A DNA stretch of 64,000 bases from Bacteroidales bacterium (lineage in GTDB: Bacteria > Bacteroidota > Bacteroidia > Bacteroidales > UBA10428). Positions 2,487 through 17,179 of this stretch are shown here, piece by piece. Position 1 is the stretch's first letter, and the number at the start of each line of letters is the position of its first letter. The DNA lies in assembly GCA_016938235.1 (NCBI GenBank), contig JAFGVA010000189.1:1-64000 (forward strand), in the 5' to 3' direction. Made by a program: the position numbers and the translations under genes. The notes beneath the pieces were generated by a model. That model saw only the letters and a program-made list of their open reading frames with translations, was not told where the DNA came from and searched no databases.

Positions 2487-5400
2487 TTAATTTGTAATTA
2501 GAAGTTTCAATGTACTTGAGCTTTTATTTGCAGAGACTTTTAAAAAGTACATACCTGCATCAAGATGATCTGCTTTTAGTATTATCGAGTGTTTTCCGAT
2601 GGAGTAAATGTTGTTGGCAATATTTTGAACCAGCGTACCCGACAGATTATATAAATCAATGTTTATATGTTCTTCTTTATCAGAAAAAAACTCAATATTA
2701 CATTCTGTTTGCACAGGATTTGGATAAACATGTAGCTTCAGTGAATTGTTGTCAAGCACTTTATATTGAGCAGTCCTTTCGGCATAGGAGCACTCCCTGC
2801 ATCCGGCAATCAGCAGTTTATTCCAACCCAGGTTATTGTTTTCATGTATTTCTTCAAATTCGTTGTCTGGGTCAATTTTAGCATAAATTCTTGGCGAACA
2901 TGTAATGGTGTCGGGTACTTTCCAGTTGAATGTAAAGTATTCTTCTTTATCCAGATTTTCCTCAGTTGCATCAAACATCATCACCACATCTTTAGATATA
3001 TCAGAGTTTCCATAGATATCTTCAAGCAGAATTCCGTTGCTTTCCGGATCACCCAGGTATAAGTTAAGGTGTATTCTTTCGTTGAATGTTTTAAGACTGT
3101 AATTGTGTATTCTTACAGCAATACAAACTGTATCGCCTGTTTCTGCAAGGGGTTTGATAAACTGTATATCGTTTGTTTTTTGTTTTTTCGAAAGTTTTAC
3201 ATTTTGCCCACCTTTTTCGGTAGCGTACCGCCATGGAAGTATAAAAGCCAAATCGGGTTTCTGGCCGTATTTATTTTCCCACCAATCCATATTGGCCTCA
3301 TCAAATTCGATCATATAGTCTAAAACAAGTGCACCGCATTGCGAGCGATAGATGTATGGAGTAATGAAATAGCGTGCATTATTGTCGTATTCTGCGTTAA
3401 GTCTTCCAATTACACCATCAATCTGGAATGAGTTTTTGAGCATGGTGTTGTGTGTTTTAAGTGTTGAACTTGAGAAATAGGATGACAATTCGCTGGAAAC
3501 CCCTGCCCTGAAATCGGTTGAAATTGAACCTCCAATACCAAATGCTCCTATATTGATGGTTGCCGTACCTTCAATGCCAATCTTTGTAAACAAATCGGCT
3601 CCAACTCCACATGCAAATGAAACACTGTTTCCTTCTTCTGCAATATTCTCAAAAGTGAATTTAAAACTACCATCTCCGGTATGCGAAACAGGAACTTTTG
3701 AATAATCGCATGAAATAAATTCGCTTGTTCCGTTAACCATGTCTTTGTTATTTTTACAGGATTTATATGAAAGAAGATTCCCCGATTCATGGTTGAAGAT
3801 GTATCCCGGGTGTTCCCAGGTATTACCACTGCCCCATGAAGAAACAAATTTTTCAGACTTTGGATTTAACACACCAATATAGCCAAGCTTTTCCAAGTTA
3901 AAATTATACACCGGGTAGCGGTAATAACTATAATCAAGACTTGAATACAACACAAAATCTTCGGTATATACGCTTTTACCTTCTTCGATGGTTTTACTCT
4001 GGCTAACGGCGTGATAGAATGACTTTCCGGCATCAAAATTGTTTTTTACTGAAGCTTCGAATCCTGTGCCTCCTGCTTCTGCATAAACTCTAAGGTCTGA
4101 TGAAAAACCAAAGGCATTATCAACTTCTACACTTGTTGTGGTTTCTCCACCAATTTCGGTGTTGTATGTTGAATAAAATGGCGGATTCTCATTGCTATTA
4201 AAAGCACTGCACAAATCATATGATACATTGTTAAAAACGTCGAAATGCACGGGTGGTGCATTTAAAATTACCAGGGGTTGTTGAAGATCAGAAACTGAAA
4301 ATATATCGGGAATTCCAACATAATAAACCTGGCTGTTTTCTAAATCGAAATCGCCGGTAGTTAATCCTGTAATGGTAATATTGCTTGTATTGTCAAAAGG
4401 TATATCATGGGCGGGGCCGGGTTGTTTAAGTATAATTACCTCCGGACTAATCGAATCCAGTTCGTAGATTTCTATGTTGGTATTTGTTGCTACACCGTTT
4501 AGCTGATTTATATAGTTCTGTTCAGATTTTAGTAGTATTATTTCTTTATTAAAATCAAGATTTGCAGTATCCGGGTTTAAATCAGCTACAACAAAGGTTT
4601 CGTTTCCCCTGATATCCATATTACCGGTTACAGTAAGGCCGACTTTTTTTGTAATACCGGTATGCTCCGTATTTGAAGCATAAATACAGAAATGCAAAGC
4701 ACTATTTAAAAGTATTTCATCGTAACCTGTGTTATCGAGATTTTCGCATTTTAGGCTGAGGGCAATATGCTGATTGGCCGGAGCCGTTCGCCGGGCATAA
4801 TATTCCTGGGCTACAAAATGGTTCTCAATGTTCTCTATATTACTTTCGAGGTTAAGGCCGAAGGTATTTAAAAACAGGGCATCTTTATAATAGTAATCCC
4901 AATGAGATGTAAAGGGCCAGACATCCCATACCTTAACCCAGTAATAGCAGTAGTAATTCGACCAGGCTACAGCAATTTCATCCTTATTATCAGCATCAAA
5001 ATCACCACAAGCCAACCGTATCTCGTTTAGGTGCATTCCTTTTGAAGCGGCGTAATTATCCGAAGGAGCTTGATTTGCCAAAATAATATCCTTGCTGGTT
5101 TGTTTGGAAACAATTTCATCTGTAAGTGTATCGTATTTTAGCACATACAGGTCGTATTTCGAATTAAAAATTGGAGGATCAACATCACTATTTGTTTCAT
5201 AAGGCATAGAGATATTTTTAACCATAACCATTTCATCGGTTCCATCGCCATCAACATCACCCGAATTAAAATCGAAATTAATATCCTGGTAAACAATCTC
5301 TTTATACGAGTCGAGATGAGTAATATTTAAATCATCATCGGTTTCGAACATCGAAATACAGAAAGTTTGGCCGGGTTTTCCATAGCAAAGTGCAAACTCA

Positions 5401-5879
5401 TCCTCGTGATCAGTGTCGAAATTTCCGGCACAGATTCTTATGCGCTCATAACCTGAGTTTATCAGTTCTTCATCGGAGTATTCTTTAAATTCGGTTATTT
5501 CTAAATCTTGATTAAATAGTGGAATACTTATTTTTATTCCACCCGAAGTATTATCGGTAATAGTTACTACATCGGCAATGCCGTCCCCGTTAAAATCACC
5601 CGTTGTTGATGCCGTTTTATTCCGATTGAGAAATTGCCTTTGATCAGGAGCCTCACTTGTAGTAATATCGTTTAATGTCACAGGAATATCCAATATTCCG
5701 TTGTAAGAAAAAGTATTTGCAGCATTTGTGTAGGAAAGAAATAGCTCTGATTCACCTCCTATTTTATACACATTAGTTATCGGATCAATATCCGTTTGGC
5801 CTTTCAGACCGATTAAATTGAATCCGGCAATTCCTAAAATATAAATTGCAATTTTAAAGTTTAAAAACAGGTTTCTCAT
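2487..5879 (-). CDS. Secreted FG-GAP/VCBS repeat protein with CARDB-like and T9SS sorting domains
   Basis: An 1130-residue exported protein. A signal peptide covers about residues 1-28. Several FG-GAP/VCBS-type repeats follow with calcium-binding-like acidic loops (DFNGDGIAD near 95, DVDGDGTDE near 208, DFDADNKDE near 292). The middle (about 560-880) is rich in beta strands and aromatic residues and not recognised. Around 925-1040 it resembles a CARDB adhesion domain (DPDNEFEEIHENNN). The last ~80 residues form a type IX secretion sorting domain (VYPNPVQTECNI ... GMYFLKV). Export through T9SS to the cell surface or medium is therefore likely; the ligand is unknown. The gene stands alone, with 130 bases before the downstream sensor gene. 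Confidence 0.8.
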   Translation of the reverse strand: MRNLFLNFKIAIYILGIAGFNLIGLKGQTDIDPITNVYKIGGESELFLSYTNAANTFSYNGILDIPVTLNDITTSEAPDQRQFLNRNKTASTTGDFNGDGIADVVTITDNTSGGIKISIPLFNQDLEITEFKEYSDEELINSGYERIRICAGNFDTDHEDEFALCYGKPGQTFCISMFETDDDLNITHLDSYKEIVYQDINFDFNSGDVDGDGTDEMVMVKNISMPYETNSDVDPPIFNSKYDLYVLKYDTLTDEIVSKQTSKDIILANQAPSDNYAASKGMHLNEIRLACGDFDADNKDEIAVAWSNYYCYYWVKVWDVWPFTSHWDYYYKDALFLNTFGLNLESNIENIENHFVAQEYYARRTAPANQHIALSLKCENLDNTGYDEILLNSALHFCIYASNTEHTGITKKVGLTVTGNMDIRGNETFVVADLNPDTANLDFNKEIILLKSEQNYINQLNGVATNTNIEIYELDSISPEVIILKQPGPAHDIPFDNTSNITITGLTTGDFDLENSQVYYVGIPDIFSVSDLQQPLVILNAPPVHFDVFNNVSYDLCSAFNSNENPPFYSTYNTEIGGETTTSVEVDNAFGFSSDLRVYAEAGGTGFEASVKNNFDAGKSFYHAVSQSKTIEEGKSVYTEDFVLYSSLDYSYYRYPVYNFNLEKLGYIGVLNPKSEKFVSSWGSGNTWEHPGYIFNHESGNLLSYKSCKNNKDMVNGTSEFISCDYSKVPVSHTGDGSFKFTFENIAEEGNSVSFACGVGADLFTKIGIEGTATINIGAFGIGGSISTDFRAGVSSELSSYFSSSTLKTHNTMLKNSFQIDGVIGRLNAEYDNNARYFITPYIYRSQCGALVLDYMIEFDEANMDWWENKYGQKPDLAFILPWRYATEKGGQNVKLSKKQKTNDIQFIKPLAETGDTVCIAVRIHNYSLKTFNERIHLNLYLGDPESNGILLEDIYGNSDISKDVVMMFDATEENLDKEEYFTFNWKVPDTITCSPRIYAKIDPDNEFEEIHENNNLGWNKLLIAGCRECSYAERTAQYKVLDNNSLKLHVYPNPVQTECNIEFFSDKEEHINIDLYNLSGTLVQNIANNIYSIGKHSIILKADHLDAGMYFLKVSANKSSSTLKLLITN

Positions 5880-7527: not shown

Positions 7528-7728
7528 TTAATTAGCCAAACTGCTGTCCGATTTTACTTCCAAGGTATCAGCTTCTGTTGAGACGGTGTCAATATTCACT
7601 TCCTGAATAACATCTTCAACTTGTTTAAGAGAATCGACATTTTCCTGATTCTCGCTGGTAGTCCCTGTTTTACACGAACTCAATGCAATAGCAAATAAAA
7701 ATACGATGGGGATGACTACTTTTTTCAT
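7528..7728 (-). CDS. Small lipoprotein
   Basis: A 66-residue protein with a clear lipoprotein signal: KK, then a hydrophobic stretch VVIPIVFLFAIAL, then lipobox LSSC with cysteine at 19. The mature part is short, acidic and rich in S, E, D and V, with no recognised domain, and resembles other small disordered Bacteroidota lipoproteins. It is divergent from the response-regulator gene at 7897. The shared 168-base intergenic region holds a paired CTTTAG element for each direction, so it is probably a target of that regulator. Its own terminator shows it is monocistronic. It could be a stress-induced envelope lipoprotein; that is inference from context only. Confidence 0.75.
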   Translation of the reverse strand: MKKVVIPIVFLFAIALSSCKTGTTSENQENVDSLKQVEDVIQEVNIDTVSTEADTLEVKSDSSLAN

Positions 7729-7775: not shown

Positions 7776-7810
7776 TAAAAGTAAAACCCAATACTAAAGC
7801 AATTCTAAAG
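7776..7810 (-). promoter_or_regulatory. CTTTAG paired operator and promoter for the lipoprotein gene
   Basis: On the - strand CTTTAG occurs at 7810-7805 and 7799-7794 (11-base period), followed after 10 bases by TACTTTTA (7783-7776), one mismatch from TAnnTTTG. Spacing is identical to the two sites at 7846-7880 and 9992-10026. Direct repeats with an 11-base period are typical of OmpR/PhoB-family binding sites. Confidence 0.6.
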
Positions 7811-7845
7811 TTTTTAATTGACTGGCAAATTTATGAGAGTCGATT

Positions 7846-7880
7846 CTTTAGTATTACTTTAGAATTTGCAAATACATTTG
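7846..7880 (+). promoter_or_regulatory. CTTTAG paired operator and promoter for the response-regulator gene
   Basis: CTTTAG at 7846-7851 and 7857-7862, then after 10 bases a perfect -7 element TACATTTG at 7873-7880. The start codon is at 7897. The direct repeat takes the place of a normal -33 box, fitting an activator-dependent, autoregulated promoter. Confidence 0.7.
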
Positions 7881-7896
7881 CAGTACAACATGACGG

Positions 7897-8574
7897 ATGA
7901 AAATATTAATCGTAGAAGATGAAAAGAACCTCCTGGAGAGCATGCTGAAATATCTTTCAGGGGAAAATTATATCTGTGAAGGGACCTCCGGCTTTCAATT
8001 GGCAGAGGACAAAATATATGTCAATGAATACGATGTATTTATCATTGACATTATGCTTCCCGATGGCAACGGATTGGATCTTGTTTCAAAAGTGAGGGAA
8101 AAGAATAGCGAAGCGGGAATTGTTATTATTTCAGCTAAAAACTCTCTGGACGATAAAATTGCCGGCCTGAATTCTGGTTCAGACGATTATATCACAAAAC
8201 CTTTCCATTTATCGGAACTGAATGCAAGGATTAAAGCCCTTCTACGCAGAAAATATTCAAAAGGTTCAAAAATACTCCGGGAAAATGAAATTTCGTTAGA
8301 CCTTGATGGTTTCAATGCTTCTGTAAATGAGGAAAATGTGGGTCTGACTATTAAGGAATTTCAATTACTGCACTACCTTATTGTAAACAAAGACAGGATA
8401 GTTCGGAAACAATCCATAGTAGAACATCTCTGGCCGGATGAATACGATTTTCACTCGTATGATTTTTTGTATACTCATGTTACAAACCTCAGAAAAAAAC
8501 TCACAAAAAAAGGTTGCAGGGATTATATAAATACTGTTTATGGAATAGGCTATAAATTTTCGGATGAAAAATAG
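7897..8574 (+). CDS. OmpR/PhoB-family response regulator
   Basis: A 225-residue DNA-binding regulator. The receiver domain (1-118) has the acidic pair E7/D8, phospho-acceptor D51 in IIDIMLPDG, and the conserved lysine in ITKPF near 101. The C-terminal winged helix (about 128-222) has the usual LTIKEFQLLHYL, HVTNLRKKL and TVYGIGYKF elements. Its cognate kinase follows after 57 bases. The upstream region carries the paired CTTTAG motif, also found before the divergent lipoprotein gene and the exchanger operon, so it probably controls itself and both neighbours. ATG at 7897 begins directly with the first receiver strand. Confidence 0.93.
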   Translation: MKILIVEDEKNLLESMLKYLSGENYICEGTSGFQLAEDKIYVNEYDVFIIDIMLPDGNGLDLVSKVREKNSEAGIVIISAKNSLDDKIAGLNSGSDDYITKPFHLSELNARIKALLRRKYSKGSKILRENEISLDLDGFNASVNEENVGLTIKEFQLLHYLIVNKDRIVRKQSIVEHLWPDEYDFHSYDFLYTHVTNLRKKLTKKGCRDYINTVYGIGYKFSDEK

Positions 8575-8631
8575 GATGGGAACTATATTGAAAGGGACTA
8601 ACCACGCACTTTTTAAAACCGTAAAAAGAAT

Positions 8632-9915
8632 ATGGAGGCCGGCAACATGAAGCTATTAAGGAAAACTTTTGGAGCCTACATTTTGGTTGCCTTGCCCGTT
8701 TTTGTTATTAGTATGGGTGGATTTTATTTTTTTCTGAAATACCTAATCACCCAACAAGTTGATGCATCGCTCAAACAAGACAAGCAGGAAATTACCGAAT
8801 TTGTAAATAATAACAAGAACGATGTTACCGAACTTTACAAGAACATATCCTGCAGCTACTATTTAAAAAAAATACCAAAGGATAGTATTGTTTTTGACAA
8901 AAGCCGGTTTATTGCAGTTTACGATAGTGTTGAGCAGGAATACGAACCCATCAGAGAATTACGTTCCTCGTTAATGATTAAAGGGAAAAATTACGCTATT
9001 ATCTTGCAGGAATCTTTCGTTGAAAGTGATTCCCTTATATACAGCATTGCATCTTTTGCCTTGATTTTGTTTATTATTCTGACCTTGGGGATTTCATTAG
9101 TTCAGGTATTTATTGCCAGGCAAATCTGGAAACCTTTCAAAAAAACCTTACGGAAAATCAGTCGTTTTAAGCCTGGTTTAAAGGGAATACCTGAATTTGA
9201 AAAAACCCCAATTGCCGAATTTACATTGCTTAACGAAGCCCTTTCAAAAATGATTGACCGTATTAATACCGACTTCGAACTTCAAAAAAAATTCATTGAT
9301 AATGTTTCGCATGAACTGCAAACGCCAATATCTGTGCTAAGTGCGCAGATTGAACTGCTTATCCAGGAAATTGAGCTGAAAGAAAGTTCGGCAGGTATTA
9401 TTAGTATCATTGAAGAAACCCTATACAAAATGAAAAGGGTAAACAAGGCATTGTTGCTTCTTTCTAAAATTGAAAATGAACAGTTCCTGTCAGCCCAGGA
9501 GGTTGATTTGGATAGCATAATTAAGCATTTTATATCAAGTCATGAAGAACAATTTAAAGTCAGGAATATTCATATTGAAACCAATAATATAAACAAGCTT
9601 AGTGTGAATATGAATCTTACCCTGGCAGAAATACTGATCGGGAACCTGTTGAGTAATTCTGTAAGGCACAATATTGAAAATGGCGAAATAAAAATTACGA
9701 TTACACAACACAGTTTATATATTTCAAACACAGGGAATGAACTGGCAACGGATCCAATGCTGCTATTTAATAAATACACTTACTCAGGAAATTCTGCTGC
9801 ATCAACGGGGCTGGGATTGTCAATCGTTAAAGAAATATGTAACAGGTATGGTTTTACAGTAATTTATACAAACAATAAAAATGTACATACCATACAAATT
9901 GATTTTGTTCGTTAA
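8632..9915 (+). CDS. Sensor histidine kinase of the OmpR-type pair
   Basis: A 427-residue membrane kinase. The first membrane segment spans about residues 15-37, a small periplasmic sensor of about 95 residues follows, then a second segment (about 140-163) and a linker. The HisKA H-box is FIDNVSHELQTPISVLSAQ (H near 228). The ATPase domain (about 320-427) has the N-box NLLSNSVRHN and G-box STGLGLSIVKEI. The periplasmic part is too short for a known ligand-binding fold that I recognise. The gene follows its regulator by 57 bases and probably shares its promoter. Start could be M1 or M6 (8647). Context suggests it senses envelope, lipid or calcium stress, but that is inference. Confidence 0.92.
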   Translation: MEAGNMKLLRKTFGAYILVALPVFVISMGGFYFFLKYLITQQVDASLKQDKQEITEFVNNNKNDVTELYKNISCSYYLKKIPKDSIVFDKSRFIAVYDSVEQEYEPIRELRSSLMIKGKNYAIILQESFVESDSLIYSIASFALILFIILTLGISLVQVFIARQIWKPFKKTLRKISRFKPGLKGIPEFEKTPIAEFTLLNEALSKMIDRINTDFELQKKFIDNVSHELQTPISVLSAQIELLIQEIELKESSAGIISIIEETLYKMKRVNKALLLLSKIENEQFLSAQEVDLDSIIKHFISSHEEQFKVRNIHIETNNINKLSVNMNLTLAEILIGNLLSNSVRHNIENGEIKITITQHSLYISNTGNELATDPMLLFNKYTYSGNSAASTGLGLSIVKEICNRYGFTVIYTNNKNVHTIQIDFVR

Positions 9916-9991
9916 CTTAGATATAACCTAAACAGGAATAACCCAAAAATGGTTAGTTTATTTGTTTGGTTTTGGATTTGTTCAAGTTGGG

Positions 9992-10026
9992 CTTTAGATT
10001 CACTTTAGATTTTGAAAATACATTTG
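9992..10026 (+). promoter_or_regulatory. CTTTAG paired operator and promoter for the exchanger operon
   Basis: CTTTAG at 9992-9997 and 10003-10008, then 10 bases, then TACATTTG at 10019-10026, 19 bases before the ATG at 10046. From the second CTTTAG on, the sequence matches the response-regulator promoter almost base for base (ACTTTAGA-TTTG-AAATACATTTGCA). Confidence 0.7.
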
Positions 10027-10045: not shown

Positions 10046-11026
10046 ATGGGTACATATTCAATATATACATACCTGCTGTTTTTGGCAGGATTTTTAATTT
10101 TAATAAAAGGGGCCGACTTACTTATAAAGGGTGGGGTTGGTGTCGCCAAACGTTTTGGTTTATCCGAGCATTTCATTGGACTAACCATTGTTTCTTTTGG
10201 TACATCCATGCCCGAATTTATAGTAAGTTTTATAGCTGCCTTGAATGGCAATAACCAGATTGCAGTGGGGAATGTTTTGGGGAGCAATATTGCCAACACC
10301 TTGCTTATTACCGGCGTTTGTGCCCTTTTAATTGCTGTTCCCGTAAAAAAGAGTACCCTCAGGTTTGAAATTCCGCTCTCAATAGTGTCCGTCCTTTTGC
10401 TGGGCTTGTTTTCATATATTAATTTTTTTGGAAAATATGTTGATTCCATTGTGGCCTGGGAGGGATTTGTACTTCTGGTTGTATTCTTTTATTTTATCCG
10501 AAGAAGTTTTAAAGATTCCAGAGAAGAAGAGAAGGATTTCAAAAAAGATAAGCAGACAAAAATAGTCCCTTTTGTTATTTTAGTTGTATTGGGGGTTGCT
10601 GGTCTATTTTTTGGCGGTAAATGGATAGTAGGCAGTTCCGTAATTATTGCGGGACATTTTGGAATCAGCCAGACATTTATTGGGTTAACCGTGGTTGCTT
10701 TCGGCACTTCTTTACCCGAGCTGGTTACCTCTGTTATTGCAGCACTCAAAAAAAACAACGGAATTGCAATCGGAAATATCATTGGCTCAAACATTTTTAA
10801 TATCCTTTGGATTATTGGATTTACATCGTTTATAAAACCAATTGGGATAAACAGTTTAAATTATTCCGATATGCTAATTGTTGCCTTATCGGCTATTTTA
10901 ATTATTGTATTTGTAATTGCCAATAAATCCAGAACATTGCACAAATCGGGGGGTATCGTTCTGGCAGGAAGCTATTTGCTATATATTGTTTATCTGTTGA
11001 ACAGGGAAAATATCGTGTCATGGTAG
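10046..11026 (+). CDS. Ca2+/Na+ exchanger, CaCA family (YrbG-like)
   Basis: A 326-residue inner-membrane antiporter of about ten helices in two homologous halves. Both alpha repeats are visible: GLTIVSFGTSMPEFIVS with GNVLGSNIANTL in the first half, and GLTVVAFGTSLPELVTS with GNIIGSNIFNIL in the second. The acidic residue in each (S/T)MPE or SLPE motif is the ion ligand in this family. It most likely exports Ca2+ in exchange for Na+ or H+. I start at ATG 10046 rather than the TTG just before it. It is the first gene of a four-gene operon led by the CTTTAG promoter and overlaps the next gene by 7 bases. Confidence 0.92.
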   Translation: MGTYSIYTYLLFLAGFLILIKGADLLIKGGVGVAKRFGLSEHFIGLTIVSFGTSMPEFIVSFIAALNGNNQIAVGNVLGSNIANTLLITGVCALLIAVPVKKSTLRFEIPLSIVSVLLLGLFSYINFFGKYVDSIVAWEGFVLLVVFFYFIRRSFKDSREEEKDFKKDKQTKIVPFVILVVLGVAGLFFGGKWIVGSSVIIAGHFGISQTFIGLTVVAFGTSLPELVTSVIAALKKNNGIAIGNIIGSNIFNILWIIGFTSFIKPIGINSLNYSDMLIVALSAILIIVFVIANKSRTLHKSGGIVLAGSYLLYIVYLLNRENIVSW

Positions 11027-11265
11027 TTAAAAATATCTTGTTAAAATTAATGGTATCGGCATTTATCGTTTTTTCAATTGCATTTAATCTGTATGGCATA
11101 ACAAATCAATTTCCATATATAGTTAATAAGCCTTCTCTTGAAATAGTTGATCTTGTGATTGATATAGAATGGAAGTTTAAAATCTCCATCTCCCATGAAG
11201 AACAAAAGAAGATTGAAACTATCGGTAATGTGTTAATTTTAATTGGAAAATATCAACGAATTTAA
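11020..11265 (+). CDS. Membrane-anchored acyl-carrier-protein-like protein
   Basis: An 81-residue protein. Residues about 6-26 are a hydrophobic helix (signal anchor or uncleaved signal). The rest, PSLEIVDLVIDIEWKFKISI followed by SHEEQKKIETIGNVLILIG, follows helix II to helix IV of acyl carrier proteins (family: DSLDxVELVMxLEExFxIxI...E...TVGDV). The phosphopantetheine serine is kept, but the canonical DSL reads PSL, and helix I of a normal ACP is replaced by the hydrophobic segment. Overlap with the exchanger gene and 11 bases to the glycosyltransferase gene show co-transcription. It may hold an acyl chain at the membrane, or be a non-carrier relative. The homology is short, so confidence is moderate. 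Confidence 0.6.
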   Translation: MVVKNILLKLMVSAFIVFSIAFNLYGITNQFPYIVNKPSLEIVDLVIDIEWKFKISISHEEQKKIETIGNVLILIGKYQRI

Positions 11266-11276
11266 TTTAATACCTG

Positions 11277-12023
11277 GTGAATAATACAGAAAACGAATTT
11301 TTAAGCATCATTATAATAGCATATAACGAAGAAAAATACCTTCCCAGACTCTTAGATACCCTTGCTAAACAGACCAATCAAAATTTTGAAATTATTATTG
11401 TTGACAGCAACTCAACGGATAATACAATTCAAAAGGCCAAAGACTATCAGCACAGATTTCAACAAATTAAAATACTAGTGCTTGATGAGCCCAATGGTCC
11501 GGCATTTGGAAGAAACCAAGGGGCTTTAGTAGCAAAATACGAACGCCTGTTATTTTTGGATGCAGACACGAGTTTAAAGCCCAATTTTATTGAACGGATA
11601 TTGAAAAGCCTGAAAAGAAATAAGGCAGATGTTGCAACCTGTCCAATCCGAATTGCAGAGGGGAGTCTTGTCTCCAACATGGGAGCAGTATTTCTGAACT
11701 TTTTTATGATTGGTTTAAAACCAGTTTATTCTTCAGCGTATGGAGCATGTTTTATCTCTACACGAACAATTCATGCTGAATTGAATGGTTTTAGAGAAGA
11801 TCTTGCTGTATGCGAAGATTGCAACTATGTAAAGCGGGCACGACGATTGCATCACTATAAATTCAGGATATTAACCCCCTTGTTTTATACTTCCGACCGC
11901 AGGGCTAAAAATGAGGGTGGATTGAGCTTTATGCTTAAATACATAAAAATTCACTTAAGAAGAATATTCACAAAAAAAGAAATCAAAAAAGGAGAAATTA
12001 CATACAATTATGGAGAATTTTAA
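11277..12023 (+). CDS. Family 2 glycosyltransferase
   Basis: A 248-residue GT-A enzyme with a GTG start. The nucleotide-sugar fold is plain: SIIIIAYNEEKYLPRLLDTL (11-30), VDSNSTDNT near 44, and the metal-binding LDADTS near 98. An acceptor-side segment near 175-190 (EDLAVCEDCNYVKRAR) has the ED pair typical of GT2 enzymes. There is no obvious membrane helix, apart from a hydrophobic VFLNFFMIGL stretch. It likely adds a sugar to a lipid or polyprenyl carrier at the inner membrane. It overlaps the following PAP2 gene by 14 bases, and both fit lipid headgroup modification. Substrate cannot be read from sequence. Confidence 0.85.
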   Translation: MNNTENEFLSIIIIAYNEEKYLPRLLDTLAKQTNQNFEIIIVDSNSTDNTIQKAKDYQHRFQQIKILVLDEPNGPAFGRNQGALVAKYERLLFLDADTSLKPNFIERILKSLKRNKADVATCPIRIAEGSLVSNMGAVFLNFFMIGLKPVYSSAYGACFISTRTIHAELNGFREDLAVCEDCNYVKRARRLHHYKFRILTPLFYTSDRRAKNEGGLSFMLKYIKIHLRRIFTKKEIKKGEITYNYGEF

Positions 12024-12702
12024 AACACCGGCAATTAAAAAAAAATGGTTATTGAAGTTTATTGAAGTAATTGATGAATTAATCAGTTTATTACGCAACA
12101 AGAAATTTTATATTGGAATAGCATTCCTGTTTGGTGGAATTCAACTGAATTTCGTATCCCAAACCTATCTTCATAATTATATGGTGGAGGGTAAAGCGCT
12201 TCCGGTTCTTTCTGACCTTATTCTGGATAATTTACCCTATTGGGATGTGGATTATTTGTACGATATCTTCAGTCTGGTTTCTGTGTTTGTTTTTATTGTA
12301 TATGTTTTGCATAAACGTGAATATAATAAAGTTCCTTATTTCCTGTTGTTATGCGGTATTTTTCATACTATACGGGCAATTTTTATAGTTCTTACGCCTT
12401 TTGGAAATCCTCCACTGTTCGATGGAACCGAGGGGCCGTTTAATGGTTTTTCGAAATACGAGTTGGGGGTTTACCCATCAGGACATACCGGAATCGCATA
12501 CATGTACTTTATCCTGGCAAAAGACAGGCGATACAGGTTGGTTCTCTTGTTTAGTGTGTTGGTAATTATTGCAGCCTTGTTCTTATCCCGTGGCCATTAT
12601 AGTATCGATGTTTTATCGGGTATATTTTTTGCTTTTGCCATCAAAGCGTATGGAGACAAATATATTTCCGGATTAATGATAAATGAAAACAGGAGGGAAT
12701 GA
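12010..12702 (+). CDS. PAP2_C / sphingomyelin-synthase-like membrane phosphatase or headgroup transferase
   Basis: A 230-residue protein with about six membrane helices. Active-site blocks are HTIRAIFIVLTP (about 119-130), YPSGHTG (about 156-162) and SRGHYSIDV (about 196-204). The two histidines and the aspartate form the H-H-D triad of the sphingomyelin synthase/PAP2_C group, which moves phospho-headgroups between lipids or removes a phosphate. Many Bacteroidota make sphingolipids, so a ceramide or undecaprenyl substrate is possible. It is the last gene of the exchanger operon and has no terminator that I can see before the convergent TrkA gene, 39 bases away. Confidence 0.8.
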   Translation: MENFKTPAIKKKWLLKFIEVIDELISLLRNKKFYIGIAFLFGGIQLNFVSQTYLHNYMVEGKALPVLSDLILDNLPYWDVDYLYDIFSLVSVFVFIVYVLHKREYNKVPYFLLLCGIFHTIRAIFIVLTPFGNPPLFDGTEGPFNGFSKYELGVYPSGHTGIAYMYFILAKDRRYRLVLLFSVLVIIAALFLSRGHYSIDVLSGIFFAFAIKAYGDKYISGLMINENRRE

Positions 12703-12741: not shown

Positions 12742-13422
12742 TTACTCCAAAAACTTCTCAATATCCATTACATTGCCAAAAATTACCATAATTGCATCCT
12801 TGCTTAACACCGTATCTGCTTTTGCAATACCTTTAACTTCCATTCTGGACTGCTTTATCCCCAGAAAGTTTCTTTTATACGCTTTTGATATCATAGCTAA
12901 AACAGTAATGTTGTAACCTGATCGAATGTCTGTTTCGTTTAAGATCATCCCTTCATATCTTTCAGGCACATCGACTTTTACTATGCTATATTCATCAGAG
13001 AGTTCGAAAGAGTCTATCAAACCTTCGGTAGTAATACTCTTTGCAAGTTTCTCTGCCGAGTCTTGTTCAGGGTGAACAATTTCATCTATACCCATTGCAT
13101 TAAGCACTGTTTCCTGTGTTTCAGATACAGCCCTGCCAATTATTCTCTTGGCATTCAGTTGTTTCATAATTGCTGTGGCCATAATTGAATTTCCTTCATG
13201 CTCTCCAATACTGATTATAACCACATCTGCATCTTTTACGGGTAATTCTTTGGCTGAATGAATATCTGCACAGTTTGCGCAAATGGTATGGGTAATATCA
13301 TTTTTAAGCATTTCAACTTTTGACATACTGCTATCAACACCTATAACTTCATGACCGAGTTGCGTAAGTCTTACTGCCAGCGCAGCGCCAAAATTACCGA
13401 GACCAACTACTAAAAAGTTCAT
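12742..13422 (-). CDS. TrkA/KtrA-type potassium channel regulator
   Basis: A 226-residue cytosolic gating subunit. The RCK_N Rossmann domain (1-120) opens with FLVVGLGNFGAALAVRLTQL and has the acidic VDSS that binds the ribose of NAD or ATP. The RCK_C domain (about 135-225) ends in IMVIFG. One RCK pair rather than two makes it the KtrA form. It forms a ring under its membrane partner, encoded 11 bases upstream at 13434-15176. It is the last gene of a long - strand cation-transport block. Confidence 0.92.
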   Translation of the reverse strand: MNFLVVGLGNFGAALAVRLTQLGHEVIGVDSSMSKVEMLKNDITHTICANCADIHSAKELPVKDADVVIISIGEHEGNSIMATAIMKQLNAKRIIGRAVSETQETVLNAMGIDEIVHPEQDSAEKLAKSITTEGLIDSFELSDEYSIVKVDVPERYEGMILNETDIRSGYNITVLAMISKAYKRNFLGIKQSRMEVKGIAKADTVLSKDAIMVIFGNVMDIEKFLE

Positions 13423-13433
13423 AGTATAAATTT

Positions 13434-15176
13434 TTAATTTATTAAAATACTTTCGGATGGATATTGAAACAATTTCCCCTTTGATTTTCTGATAAATGCC
13501 GATAAGAAAGTTAAAGCACCTACCCTTCCAATAAACATTGTAAACGAAATTATGTATTTACCGGTAACCGATAAATCGCCGGTAATACCACGGCTCAAAC
13601 CTACTGTACTAAATGCCGAAAAGACCTCAAACATCAGGTCGGTGGCATTTTTATCGGGTTCCGATTTTAATAAGATAATTATGACCAGGCCAATAATTAA
13701 CAAAGCTAAAAACATAAAAGCAAAGGAACGTCGGATAGATGTTTCAGGGATTTGCCTGCGATTTAGTTCCACTTTCTGTTTTCCTCTTGCGAGACTTGCA
13801 ATATTAAGAATAGCCAGGGCAATTGTGCTGGTTTTTATACCTCCTCCTGTTGATGCGGGTGATGCCCCTATCCACATAAGCAGAATAATAAACATTGCTG
13901 TTGGAATGTAGATTGCTGAGGTGTCAACTGTATTGAATCCTGCTGTACGTGGGGTTGCTGCACAAAAAAAAGCAGTTATAAATTTCCCAAGTCCTTTATG
14001 TTCAGCTAAGGTATTGTTATACTCCAGTAAAAAGAACATAACTGTACCAACAATTAAGAGAATGAGCGTAGTATAAAGAACCAGCCTGGTGTTCAGTGAA
14101 AATACATGGGCCTGGTGAATTGTTTTTCTATGTTTGTGTAAAGGGTGTAGGTGATTTATAAACCAATGTTTAAGCCAGCTAAACAGATTTATAATAACCG
14201 GAAAACCCAGTCCGCCAACAATAAATAGCAATGCTATGGTTACATGCAAAAAATAGTTAAATCTGAAATTTATGTCATAAAAACTGTCTGCTAGCGTTGA
14301 AAAACCAGCATTACAAAAAGCTGAAATGGCATGAAAAACTGAAAAAAATAAGGTTTCTGATTGTTCATAACCGGATAGGTAACGGATATTTATGTATATG
14401 AGAACAACCCCAATCAATTCTACAAAAAAGGTAAAAAAAAGTATCTTTTTCAAAGTACCGATAACCTCTGCTATTTTATTTTCATTTGTAAGGTTGCCCA
14501 CTAAGACAAGATTTTGATAGGAGACACCTCCCATAAAAAAATAAGCAAAAAAGCTGGTGAAGGTCATTATTCCAATGCCTCCCAGTTGAATCAGCACCAG
14601 TATTATTGACTGCCCGAAAACTGTAAAACAGGAACCTGTATCAACCACAATTAAACCGGTTACACAAACCGCACTGGTTGAAGTAAACAGGGCATCAATA
14701 AATGAAATTCCTGAGTAGCTTGCCCGTGGCAGCATAAGCATAACTGTTCCCGCTACAACCAGTAAAGCAAAACTAAAGATAAAAATAGCTGCTGGATTAG
14801 CATGTTTATAGCGCCAGTTCAACCTCATGCCCGAAAACTCCCGAACGAGGCTCGTTGTAATTGCTATGAATAACCAGATTTTATAATTTGCAGCCCCATT
14901 CGATAGTTCACCGAAGGGAATTGTAACCAATAGATAATTGTAAAAACCCCATAAAACCAGCTCATTTATCCATATCCTTAGTTTTGGATAGTCTTTAAAA
15001 TCAACAATATATTTAATGGGGATAAAAACGATGATTCCCAAGAGGTAAATGAAATAGGAATAATTCAGAACCTTTAAAGTTTTTGCGTCCTGGTAAAATC
15101 CAACATCAAACAGCATGGTAAGCATTGCCATGATGCTGATAAAAAGAGCACCATATTTTAAAGTATGCTTGTTCAC
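13434..15176 (-). CDS. TrkH/KtrB-family potassium transporter
   Basis: A 580-residue membrane protein with an N-terminal hydrophobic extension (about 1-120) before the four M1-P-M2 pore repeats. Selectivity-filter blocks include TSAVCVTGLIVVDTG (first pore loop), AFCNAGFST, TPRTAGFNT and FSTVGLSRG, each with the conserved glycine. Na+ or H+-coupled K+ uptake is the family function. The GTG start overlaps the stop of the upstream antiporter gene by one base (TAGTG), showing translational coupling, and ktrA follows after 11 bases. The extra N-terminal helices set it apart from the shorter TrkH at 20769. Confidence 0.92.
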   Translation of the reverse strand: MNKHTLKYGALFISIMAMLTMLFDVGFYQDAKTLKVLNYSYFIYLLGIIVFIPIKYIVDFKDYPKLRIWINELVLWGFYNYLLVTIPFGELSNGAANYKIWLFIAITTSLVREFSGMRLNWRYKHANPAAIFIFSFALLVVAGTVMLMLPRASYSGISFIDALFTSTSAVCVTGLIVVDTGSCFTVFGQSIILVLIQLGGIGIMTFTSFFAYFFMGGVSYQNLVLVGNLTNENKIAEVIGTLKKILFFTFFVELIGVVLIYINIRYLSGYEQSETLFFSVFHAISAFCNAGFSTLADSFYDINFRFNYFLHVTIALLFIVGGLGFPVIINLFSWLKHWFINHLHPLHKHRKTIHQAHVFSLNTRLVLYTTLILLIVGTVMFFLLEYNNTLAEHKGLGKFITAFFCAATPRTAGFNTVDTSAIYIPTAMFIILLMWIGASPASTGGGIKTSTIALAILNIASLARGKQKVELNRRQIPETSIRRSFAFMFLALLIIGLVIIILLKSEPDKNATDLMFEVFSAFSTVGLSRGITGDLSVTGKYIISFTMFIGRVGALTFLSAFIRKSKGKLFQYPSESILIN

Positions 15177-17179
15177 TATTGCTCTGGATATATAATTACT
15201 ATGTTATTTTTATTCAGCCAATCCATCGAAGCATTCATTATCTGTTCAAAGGATTTGTTGTAAGATATGGTTCTTTTCCTGGAATGAACAAATACCACCA
15301 ACTCTGAAATTGAGTTCTGAATGTGTTTGTTGATGTGTTGATTTACTTCTTGTTGTTGTAAATCATAATATTTTATTGTACCGGTAAGGCTTGTATAATG
15401 CTTAATAGCCTCTAGGGTTTGAGTTGAGTTACAATCAACAAAGGCTTTTATCTGTAACTTTTTAATAAGATAATTCAATGTATCTATCCACAGGTAAAAT
15501 CCTTTTTCATACTGGGCATTTTCCGGACACAGCAGGTGCATCTTTCGAACCTGACTAAAACTCGAAGGTGTTTTCAATACCATTACCATACGCTCGGTTT
15601 TATCCAACAGGTTATTCAATACACTGCCAAACAGAATATGAAAAGGGGTTTTGCTTTTGTTCCACCCCATAATAATTGTGGTTGCAACAACTTCTTCAGC
15701 AGCTCTCACTATTCCGTTAGTAACATTATTATCAATTCTGGAACTGGCTTCGAAGGAAACATCGGACTGCATAGAATTTATAACCTTTGTAATTCTTTCC
15801 CGGTTTTCGTCAATTCTGTCTCTTACTTCATTTCGGTTTGTGAAAATAGTGAGAGGATATACAGGAATATTGCTGCCGTCTACTTTTATTAAGCTGGCAA
15901 ATTCAAGCAGGTTTTCCATATTGGAGGGATTCGCCACCGGCACCAGTATTTTTTGCTTTACTTTGCTTCCTCCCTCAATAGTATCTTCTTCGAACAGCAG
16001 CTTCTTTCCTGACCGCTGTGTAATGTATGAGCTGCTAATACTTGTAACCAGAATGAGTATTACCGTATTATTTAATACGGCTTCGGGAATAAATCCCATA
16101 TTAAAACCAATAAGAATAATTGCAATGGCAGATGCCGCCCTGGAAACACTAAGGCCGAAAATCAGGTTGGTTTCTGTTTTCGATGTTTTAAAAATCAGCC
16201 TTGTAAAAAGAGCAGCAATATATTTACCTGCAAAGGCGGTTATCACAAGTGTTATCAGGAAAACAATCTGAATAGGATGATTTAAATAAACTTTAAAATC
16301 GGCCAAAATACCTATTGATATCAAAAAGAACGGTATAAAAAGGTTATTACCAATAAACTCTATGCGTTTATACAAGGGTGATGAGTTGATAATCAAGCGG
16401 TTTAAAACCAGTCCGCTAAAAAAAGCACCCAGTATGGGCTCAATATCCAACAGATAGGCAACCATCGCCGAAGCAAAGAGTATAACCAACACAAAAATAT
16501 ATTGCACACCCAAATCCCCTTCATACTTGTTTAAAAAGACCCTTGAAAGACGGGGTATAACCAAAAAAACAACAAAAAACAACAGTGAAAAATGCAAGCC
16601 TAACAACAGCAAGCTGTCCATTTCAAAACCCTTATCGGCAAAATTGGTTATGAGTTCCATTGCTACCAGGGCAAGTATATCGGCAATTATTGTGGCACCC
16701 ACAATAACGGTAACAATGGGTTTGCCGACAATACCCAACCTCCCCAATAATGGATATGAAATGAGGGTATGGGAAGACAGCATGGCTGCAATCAGCCATG
16801 AAGCAATTACTTCGTAATTTAATAAATACCTGCACGCCAGATAGCCCAGAATAAATGGCAATACAAAGGTAGCCAGACCTATAAAAATACTTTTTACTTT
16901 GTTTTCAATAAAATCTACGAGGTCAATTTCCAATCCGGCTAAAAACATCAGGTATAATAAGCCCATAGTTCCCAGTAAGCTGAACTCCAGATCGGGGGAT
17001 ACCAGATTAAATCCATGCGGACCGATTATTGCTCCACTTATTAACAAGCCTACAATGGAAGGAATACGCACCCGCTCGAAAAATACCGGGCCAATAAGTA
17101 AAATAACCAAAACCAGGGTTATTATAATTACCGGTTCCTCGAAAGGGAAATGGATATTAAGTGTAAGCAATTGCTTCAT
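15176..17179 (-). CDS. CPA2-type cation/proton antiporter with universal-stress-like C-terminus
   Basis: A 667-residue protein. About 12-13 helices (20-390) form a Na+(K+)/H+ exchanger domain, with LLISGAIIGPHGFNL, MFLAGLEIDL and the later GLSVSRAASAIAI blocks of the KefB/CPA2 group. The soluble part (about 405-665) begins KQKILVPVANPSN and continues with an alpha/beta layout like one or two UspA domains (ATTIIMGWNKSK). No TrkA-N domain follows, so regulation is not KefB-like. It probably exchanges monovalent cations for protons. It overlaps the downstream KtrB gene by one base. Confidence 0.88.
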   Translation of the reverse strand: MKQLLTLNIHFPFEEPVIIITLVLVILLIGPVFFERVRIPSIVGLLISGAIIGPHGFNLVSPDLEFSLLGTMGLLYLMFLAGLEIDLVDFIENKVKSIFIGLATFVLPFILGYLACRYLLNYEVIASWLIAAMLSSHTLISYPLLGRLGIVGKPIVTVIVGATIIADILALVAMELITNFADKGFEMDSLLLLGLHFSLLFFVVFLVIPRLSRVFLNKYEGDLGVQYIFVLVILFASAMVAYLLDIEPILGAFFSGLVLNRLIINSSPLYKRIEFIGNNLFIPFFLISIGILADFKVYLNHPIQIVFLITLVITAFAGKYIAALFTRLIFKTSKTETNLIFGLSVSRAASAIAIILIGFNMGFIPEAVLNNTVILILVTSISSSYITQRSGKKLLFEEDTIEGGSKVKQKILVPVANPSNMENLLEFASLIKVDGSNIPVYPLTIFTNRNEVRDRIDENRERITKVINSMQSDVSFEASSRIDNNVTNGIVRAAEEVVATTIIMGWNKSKTPFHILFGSVLNNLLDKTERMVMVLKTPSSFSQVRKMHLLCPENAQYEKGFYLWIDTLNYLIKKLQIKAFVDCNSTQTLEAIKHYTSLTGTIKYYDLQQQEVNQHINKHIQNSISELVVFVHSRKRTISYNKSFEQIMNASMDWLNKNNIVIIYPEQ

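Follow-up and report, generated by a model that had tools for sequence, protein, structure and literature searches.

A paired CTTTAG element as the predicted operator of a PmrA-like regulator encoded beside a PorY-family kinase in a Bacteroidales genome

Three copies of one operator-promoter element were found in the window (the whole stretch of DNA analysed, 64,000 nucleotides), each in front of a different unit. Judged from the sequence, the element is very probably the operator of the OmpR/PhoB-type response regulator encoded at 7897, which would control its own operon, a small lipoprotein gene and a calcium/sodium antiporter unit, likely by activation. The best reading of the regulator itself is a PmrA-like OmpR protein paired with a PorY-family sensor kinase. 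The features are as follows:

7528-7728, minus strand: putative lipoprotein, 66 aa (signal and SCK lipobox assigned by eye)
7776-7810, minus strand: operator-promoter element 1, CTTTAG-N5-CTTTAG-N10-TACTTTTA, in front of the small lipoprotein gene
7846-7880, plus strand: operator-promoter element 2, in front of the regulator and kinase genes, ending in TACATTTG, with the regulator start 16 bases on
7897-8574, plus strand: OmpR/PhoB-type response regulator (Response_reg and Trans_reg_C), predicted recognition helix at residues 188-204
8632-9915, plus strand: PorY-family sensor histidine kinase (NF052314, 406.2 bits, cut-off 350)
9992-10026, plus strand: operator-promoter element 3, in front of the antiporter unit, ending in TACATTTG
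10046-11026, plus strand: calcium/sodium antiporter (TIGR00367, 235.6 bits, cut-off 179.65)
11020-11265, plus strand: 81-aa reading frame between the antiporter and glycosyltransferase genes, below family cut-offs
11277-12023, plus strand: family 2 glycosyltransferase, its C55 counterpart (see below) 60% identical
12010-12702, plus strand: PAP2-like membrane protein, Pfam scores slightly below cut-off, its C55 counterpart 77% identical

Both domains of the regulator scored above cut-off (PF00072, 80.7 bits; PF00486, 72.4 bits). The protein stayed under the cut-offs of the RprY model NF051850 (118.8 bits, cut-off 370), the RppA model NF041734 (176.9 bits, cut-off 250) and the PmrA model NF007928 (174.5 bits, cut-off 330). 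The kinase, the true start of which may lie a few codons in, shares its assignment with nine other kinases tested from related loci, the C55 paralogue among them, which also passed the PorY-family cut-off; the kinases of L172, L173 and L184 lay barely above it. The 66-aa putative lipoprotein gave 28.9 bits against the PG1828 family, below the cut-off of 50. The 81-aa frame has a hydrophobic start and a second half that weakly resembles an acyl carrier protein. We also noted an 1130-aa exported protein on the minus strand (2487-5879), the end of which, judged by eye, resembles a type IX secretion sorting domain, and a minus-strand potassium/cation block adjoining the antiporter unit (12742-17179), consisting of a TrkA-like protein, TrkH and a Na/H exchanger with a Usp domain.

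The original prediction placed CTTTAG-N5-CTTTAG-N10-TAnnTTT at these three positions and strands, with spacing identical to the base and a different unit behind each copy. All three copies were read there, period 11 and spacer 10 are common to them, and they precede the lipoprotein gene, the regulator and kinase genes, and the antiporter unit, respectively. Element 1 reads CTTTAGaattgCTTTAG-tattgggttt-TACTTTTA (minus strand, 7810-7776), element 2 CTTTAGtattaCTTTAG-aatttgcaaa-TACATTTG (plus strand, 7846-7880) and element 3 CTTTAGattcaCTTTAG-attttgaaaa-TACATTTG (plus strand, 9992-10026). The standard housekeeping promoter of Bacteroidota is TTTG-N19-TAnnTTTG. Its -7 box, TAnnTTTG, was present in two of the three window sites, with TACTTTTA in the third; the TTTA at the end of element 1 fits TAnnTTT and not TAnnTTTG, to which it has 1 mismatch. 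The -33 box, TTTG, had no match at any of the three sites, where AGAA, AGTA and AGAT occupy that place.

In the proposed mechanism, two regulator protomers would bind head to tail to half-sites CTTTAG(AWTT) set one helical turn apart, and the operator would take the place of the -33 box, 10 bases from the -7 box. With the operator placed across the -33 region at a fixed distance from the -7 box, activation of RNA polymerase by the bound regulator, which would replace the -33 contact, is the most likely outcome. The kinase-regulator pair would then control itself, the divergent small lipoprotein gene and the downstream antiporter/glycosyltransferase/PAP2-like unit. The regulator might instead bind the same sites and repress, blocking RNA polymerase at otherwise active promoters. 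Occlusion is conceivable because the operator overlaps the promoter region, but we regard repression as improbable: the -33 TTTG is missing from all three sites, and the constant 10-base distance, seen in the window and in the relatives carrying it, is expected for polymerase contact.

Exact CTTTAG-N5-CTTTAG occurred three times in the window, at these places only, versus 0.012 expected under a first-order Markov model of the window; with the -7 box included, the expectation fell to 0.00005. Both expectations concern a pattern picked after the sites had been seen, so the whole genome and the relatives provide a fairer test. When the repeat pair alone was allowed up to 3 mismatches, the window was not enriched (70 observed vs. 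87 expected); the signal thus sits in the near-exact copies.

The host genome (239 contigs, 5.22 Mb) contained six exact pairs versus 0.96 expected from the same model, i.e. three in the window, two at a second locus, C55, and one on contig C17. The last (L001) was rejected, as it lies within a long reading frame and has no -7 box at the correct distance. For the full motif with TAnnTTTG, of which about 0.004 sites are expected per genome (first-order Markov of the window), we found four sites without mismatch, two with 1, none with 2 and 13 with 3. The motif read backward gave 22 sites at up to 3 mismatches and 0 at up to 1. The six sites with at most 1 mismatch comprised three in the window and three at C55. 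A genome-wide search, as the original prediction had called for, therefore found the element not scattered but confined, in six copies, to two paralogous regulator/kinase loci. A wider regulon in the host genome was rejected, with zero further full-motif sites at up to 2 mismatches. The genome encodes seven Trans_reg_C regulators, and the five others lacked the full motif at up to 1 mismatch.

The layout of C55 is like that of the window, with a 73-aa putative lipoprotein on the left, a regulator and a kinase on the right, and a third element followed by an SdiA-regulated protein, a glycosyltransferase, a PAP2-like protein and a DUF2141 protein. Element 2 has counterparts there and upstream of the regulators of relatives. 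The two regulators are 59% identical, and their recognition helices read FLYTHVTNLRKKL and FIYTHLTNLRKKL. Since C55 carries the same operators and its regulator a near-identical helix, the two systems probably share one regulon, predicted to comprise six promoters, and would cross-regulate them. The original prediction had described a compact regulon of three promoters under the 7897 regulator; the sequence supports those three, and the second locus had been missed. It thereby becomes testable whether a single operator lets two diverged systems of one cell act on a common regulon.

Chance and recent duplication, i.e. copied DNA without function, were weighed against these data. Two of the three window sites are at most 110 bases apart and the second locus is a paralogue, as copying would leave them. 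However, the paralogous regulators have diverged to the identity given above, and element 3 and its C55 counterpart align in both half-sites while the surrounding DNA is hardly alignable. Chance is ruled out by the exact counts and controls, including the minute number of full sites expected per genome. Moreover, further families and orders also have the element next to related regulators, and the conservation tests described below contradict both ideas, the joint probability of which we consider close to nil.

An operator of a known regulator type is well supported. As described in the accessible part of PMC3973317, the PmrA box of Salmonella has half-sites CTTAAG and XTTAAT arranged head to tail with five bases between them. 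PmrA (BasR) is thus alike in being an OmpR-type regulator with two head-to-tail hexamers separated by N5. The 7897 regulator was 33% identical to K. pneumoniae PmrA in a structure alignment (4s04); the PmrA helix residues His and Asn (193, 196) are kept, whereas His195 and Glu199 are replaced by Thr and Lys. The half-site differs as well, being CTTTAG and not CTTAAG, with T instead of A at base 4 in the three window sites, and the target genes are other ones. A fold search returned the OmpR family, with the PmrA-DNA complex at rank 5, and added little beyond sequence. The second comparison, by operator alone, is with BqsR (CarR) of Pseudomonas aeruginosa, an activator with the period-11 operator TTAAG-N6-TTAAG in the available portion of PMC4682146; the period agrees and the half-site sequence differs. 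The same portion gives 432 candidate operators at up to 2 mutations in the P. aeruginosa genome, versus six here at up to 2 mismatches.

The window kinase belongs to the family of PorY from Porphyromonas gingivalis. In that species, according to the part of PMC5005315 available, the porY and porX genes are far apart, the PorX protein is of the CheY-PglZ type, and no binding of PorX to the T9SS promoters tested was seen. As far as that part goes, the window differs in that the kinase gene follows the gene of an OmpR-type DNA-binding regulator and does not sit apart from its partner. PorY-family kinases, the studied P. gingivalis member of which sits apart from its partner, hereby gain a concrete predicted operator, regulator and small regulon. 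In the literature searched, to which subscription journals mostly did not belong, we found no report of the element, and neither the motif nor the link to this kinase family had a match there.

Within the same family, a regulator match at E 1e-40 was present in 6 of 23 genomes, and the motif at up to 1 mismatch in only 2 of the 23, the host included. Across the order, 96 of 392 genomes (host included) had a regulator match at E 1e-55. A pattern search of the 392 genomes with two mismatches returned 49 sites in 29 genomes. Outside the host genome there were 43 sites. For 28 of them a regulator match was no more than 10 kb away, and for 26 no more than 3 kb, leaving 15 remote ones; the backward control summed to 10, close to the number of unexplained remote sites.

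The regulator set comprised the 60 strongest order matches outside the host genome, 4 from the family, the 2 host regulators and 9 from a contig scan, 75 in total; 51 weaker matches and one partial match were left out. The contig scan covered at least 80 loci, of which 9 (L059-L066 and L130) entered the element counts and L122 and L125 were inspected for elements. After removal of L059 (24 bases upstream) and L216 (N), 73 regulators, the two host ones included, were counted, each with 150 bases of upstream region. A motif-free test found nine-base repeats of period 11 in 21 of the 73 regions (19 of 71 without the host), with 2.5 in shuffles and no more than 5 regions at any other period from 6 to 24. 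In the motif test, 22 regions (20 of 71 without the host) reached at least 15 of 18 points, compared with 0.00 in shuffles, and a clear peak stood at period 11 with spacer 10, other spacings giving at most 6. The element thus recurs upstream of related regulators, as the original prediction required, and at a number of loci a further copy precedes the next unit; nevertheless, it is absent or changed at many, with 51 of the 73 below 15 points. Bases 7, 9, 10, 18, 20 and 21, which took no part in the scoring, are conserved too, and the fuller consensus for regulators without Lys at residue 196 (see below) is CTTTAGAWTTN-CTTTAGAWTT-N6-TAnnTTTG. In 18 of 24 elements of such regulators (at least 14 points), e.g. 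L173 (1370-1409) and L188, the start codon lies 4-5 bases past the -7 box, so the regulator messenger of these relatives may be leaderless or nearly so; the distance in the window is 16 bases.

Residue 196 occupies a central position in the predicted helix of the window regulator. The helix aligns with that of PmrA without gaps, and residue 196 pairs with PmrA His195, one of the helix residues named in a docking model in the accessible part of PMC3973317. Base 4 of the half-site tended to be C with Lys at this position and T with Asn or Thr. In the discovery set, scanned blind to base 4 at a threshold of at least 13 of 16 points, all 11 Lys cases had C in both half-sites and all 21 others had no C. 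The base-4 prediction was noted before a class set of 89 further regulators (29 loci given and 60 fetched, weaker class matches left out) was fetched. In its strict form, which asks for two C half-sites with Lys and for no C otherwise, it failed there: among elements scoring at least 14 points, C stood in both half-sites for 10 of 17 with Lys and for one of three without (L312), and L326, a Lys regulator, has CTTTAG twice. At least one C for Lys, a looser form framed after this result, held for 16 of the 17 Lys elements; from 13 points upwards, at least one C was present in 25 of 28 elements with Lys and in 2 of 4 without. With both sets combined, at least one C was found in 36/39 cases with Lys and 2/25 without (Fisher p 4.6e-12, ignoring kinship), and for the 3' half-site alone C was found in 30/39 and 1/25. 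The residue-196 label changes six times on a tree from which the helix columns were left out. Counted in independent pairs, the 3' half-site had about 3 for, 0 against and 2 neutral (median p 0.25); any half-site had 2.4 for, 0 against and 2.6 neutral (median p 0.5). The trend, strong in raw counts and not significant once corrected for phylogeny, is therefore suggestive evidence for direct recognition and not proof. It makes testable whether one operator base is dictated by one residue of the helix, and the related regulators form a useful natural covariation series. We must also note that at class loci L280, L298, L301, L325 and L334, where the helix is VHLRN or VHLTN, one or both half-sites carry A at base 4, which gives CTTAAG, the PmrA-box hexamer.

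It could also be argued that another regulator or an alternative sigma factor uses the element and controls this neighbourhood by coincidence, given that the 15 remote order sites lie away from any regulator match. We hold this to be very unlikely, since sites accompany a 7897-type regulator at both host loci and in other genomes, base 4 tends to vary with a residue in that regulator's own helix, and the known operators of PmrA and BqsR are likewise head-to-tail repeats of period 11. In addition, three of the 15 remote sites (L243, L259 and L261) stand before small exported proteins; the two tested, those of L243 and L261, are PepSY_like, the commonest neighbour of the regulators.

The element was also found directly before the PepSY_like gene in several loci, and seven such proteins tested all exceeded the PF11396 cut-off. 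PepSY_like matches occurred in 44 of the 75 regulator loci, starting 1.2-3.3 kb past the regulator start in 32 (69 of the 75 have enough DNA there). The gene at that position is the calcium/sodium antiporter in the window and the SdiA-regulated protein in C55; PAP2-like matches were confined to these two among the 75 loci. Cation or envelope stress as the signal is a guess from the antiporter and the envelope-type genes. Calcium signalling, considered because of the antiporter and of the SdiA-regulated protein in L028, is a lead only. Direct binding, activation rather than repression, cross-regulation and an envelope or cation signal are all what we infer from the sequence.

A class-wide reading is possible, although we lean against it as a whole. 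PorY-family kinases would ancestrally partner a PmrA-like regulator with a small, often almost leaderless, self-controlling regulon and an exported PepSY_like feedback protein, and residue 196 and base 4 would have switched together several times. Here, two diverged copies with one common operator would cross-regulate their six promoters, the targets having moved from PepSY_like proteins to calcium exchange and to genes for envelope lipids or glycans. If true, one residue and one base would form a natural recognition series across the class.

In L205, the regulator and a PepSY_like gene each have one element of a divergent pair. The gap between divergent elements is 35 bases in the window, 13 in C55 and 14 in L205; 35 and 13 differ by 22, or two helical turns, which with three cases only is proof of nothing. 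In L130 (Nonlabens antarcticus), three period-11 half-sites in a row (10189-10216) immediately precede a PepSY_like match, some 4 kb downstream from where the regulator starts.
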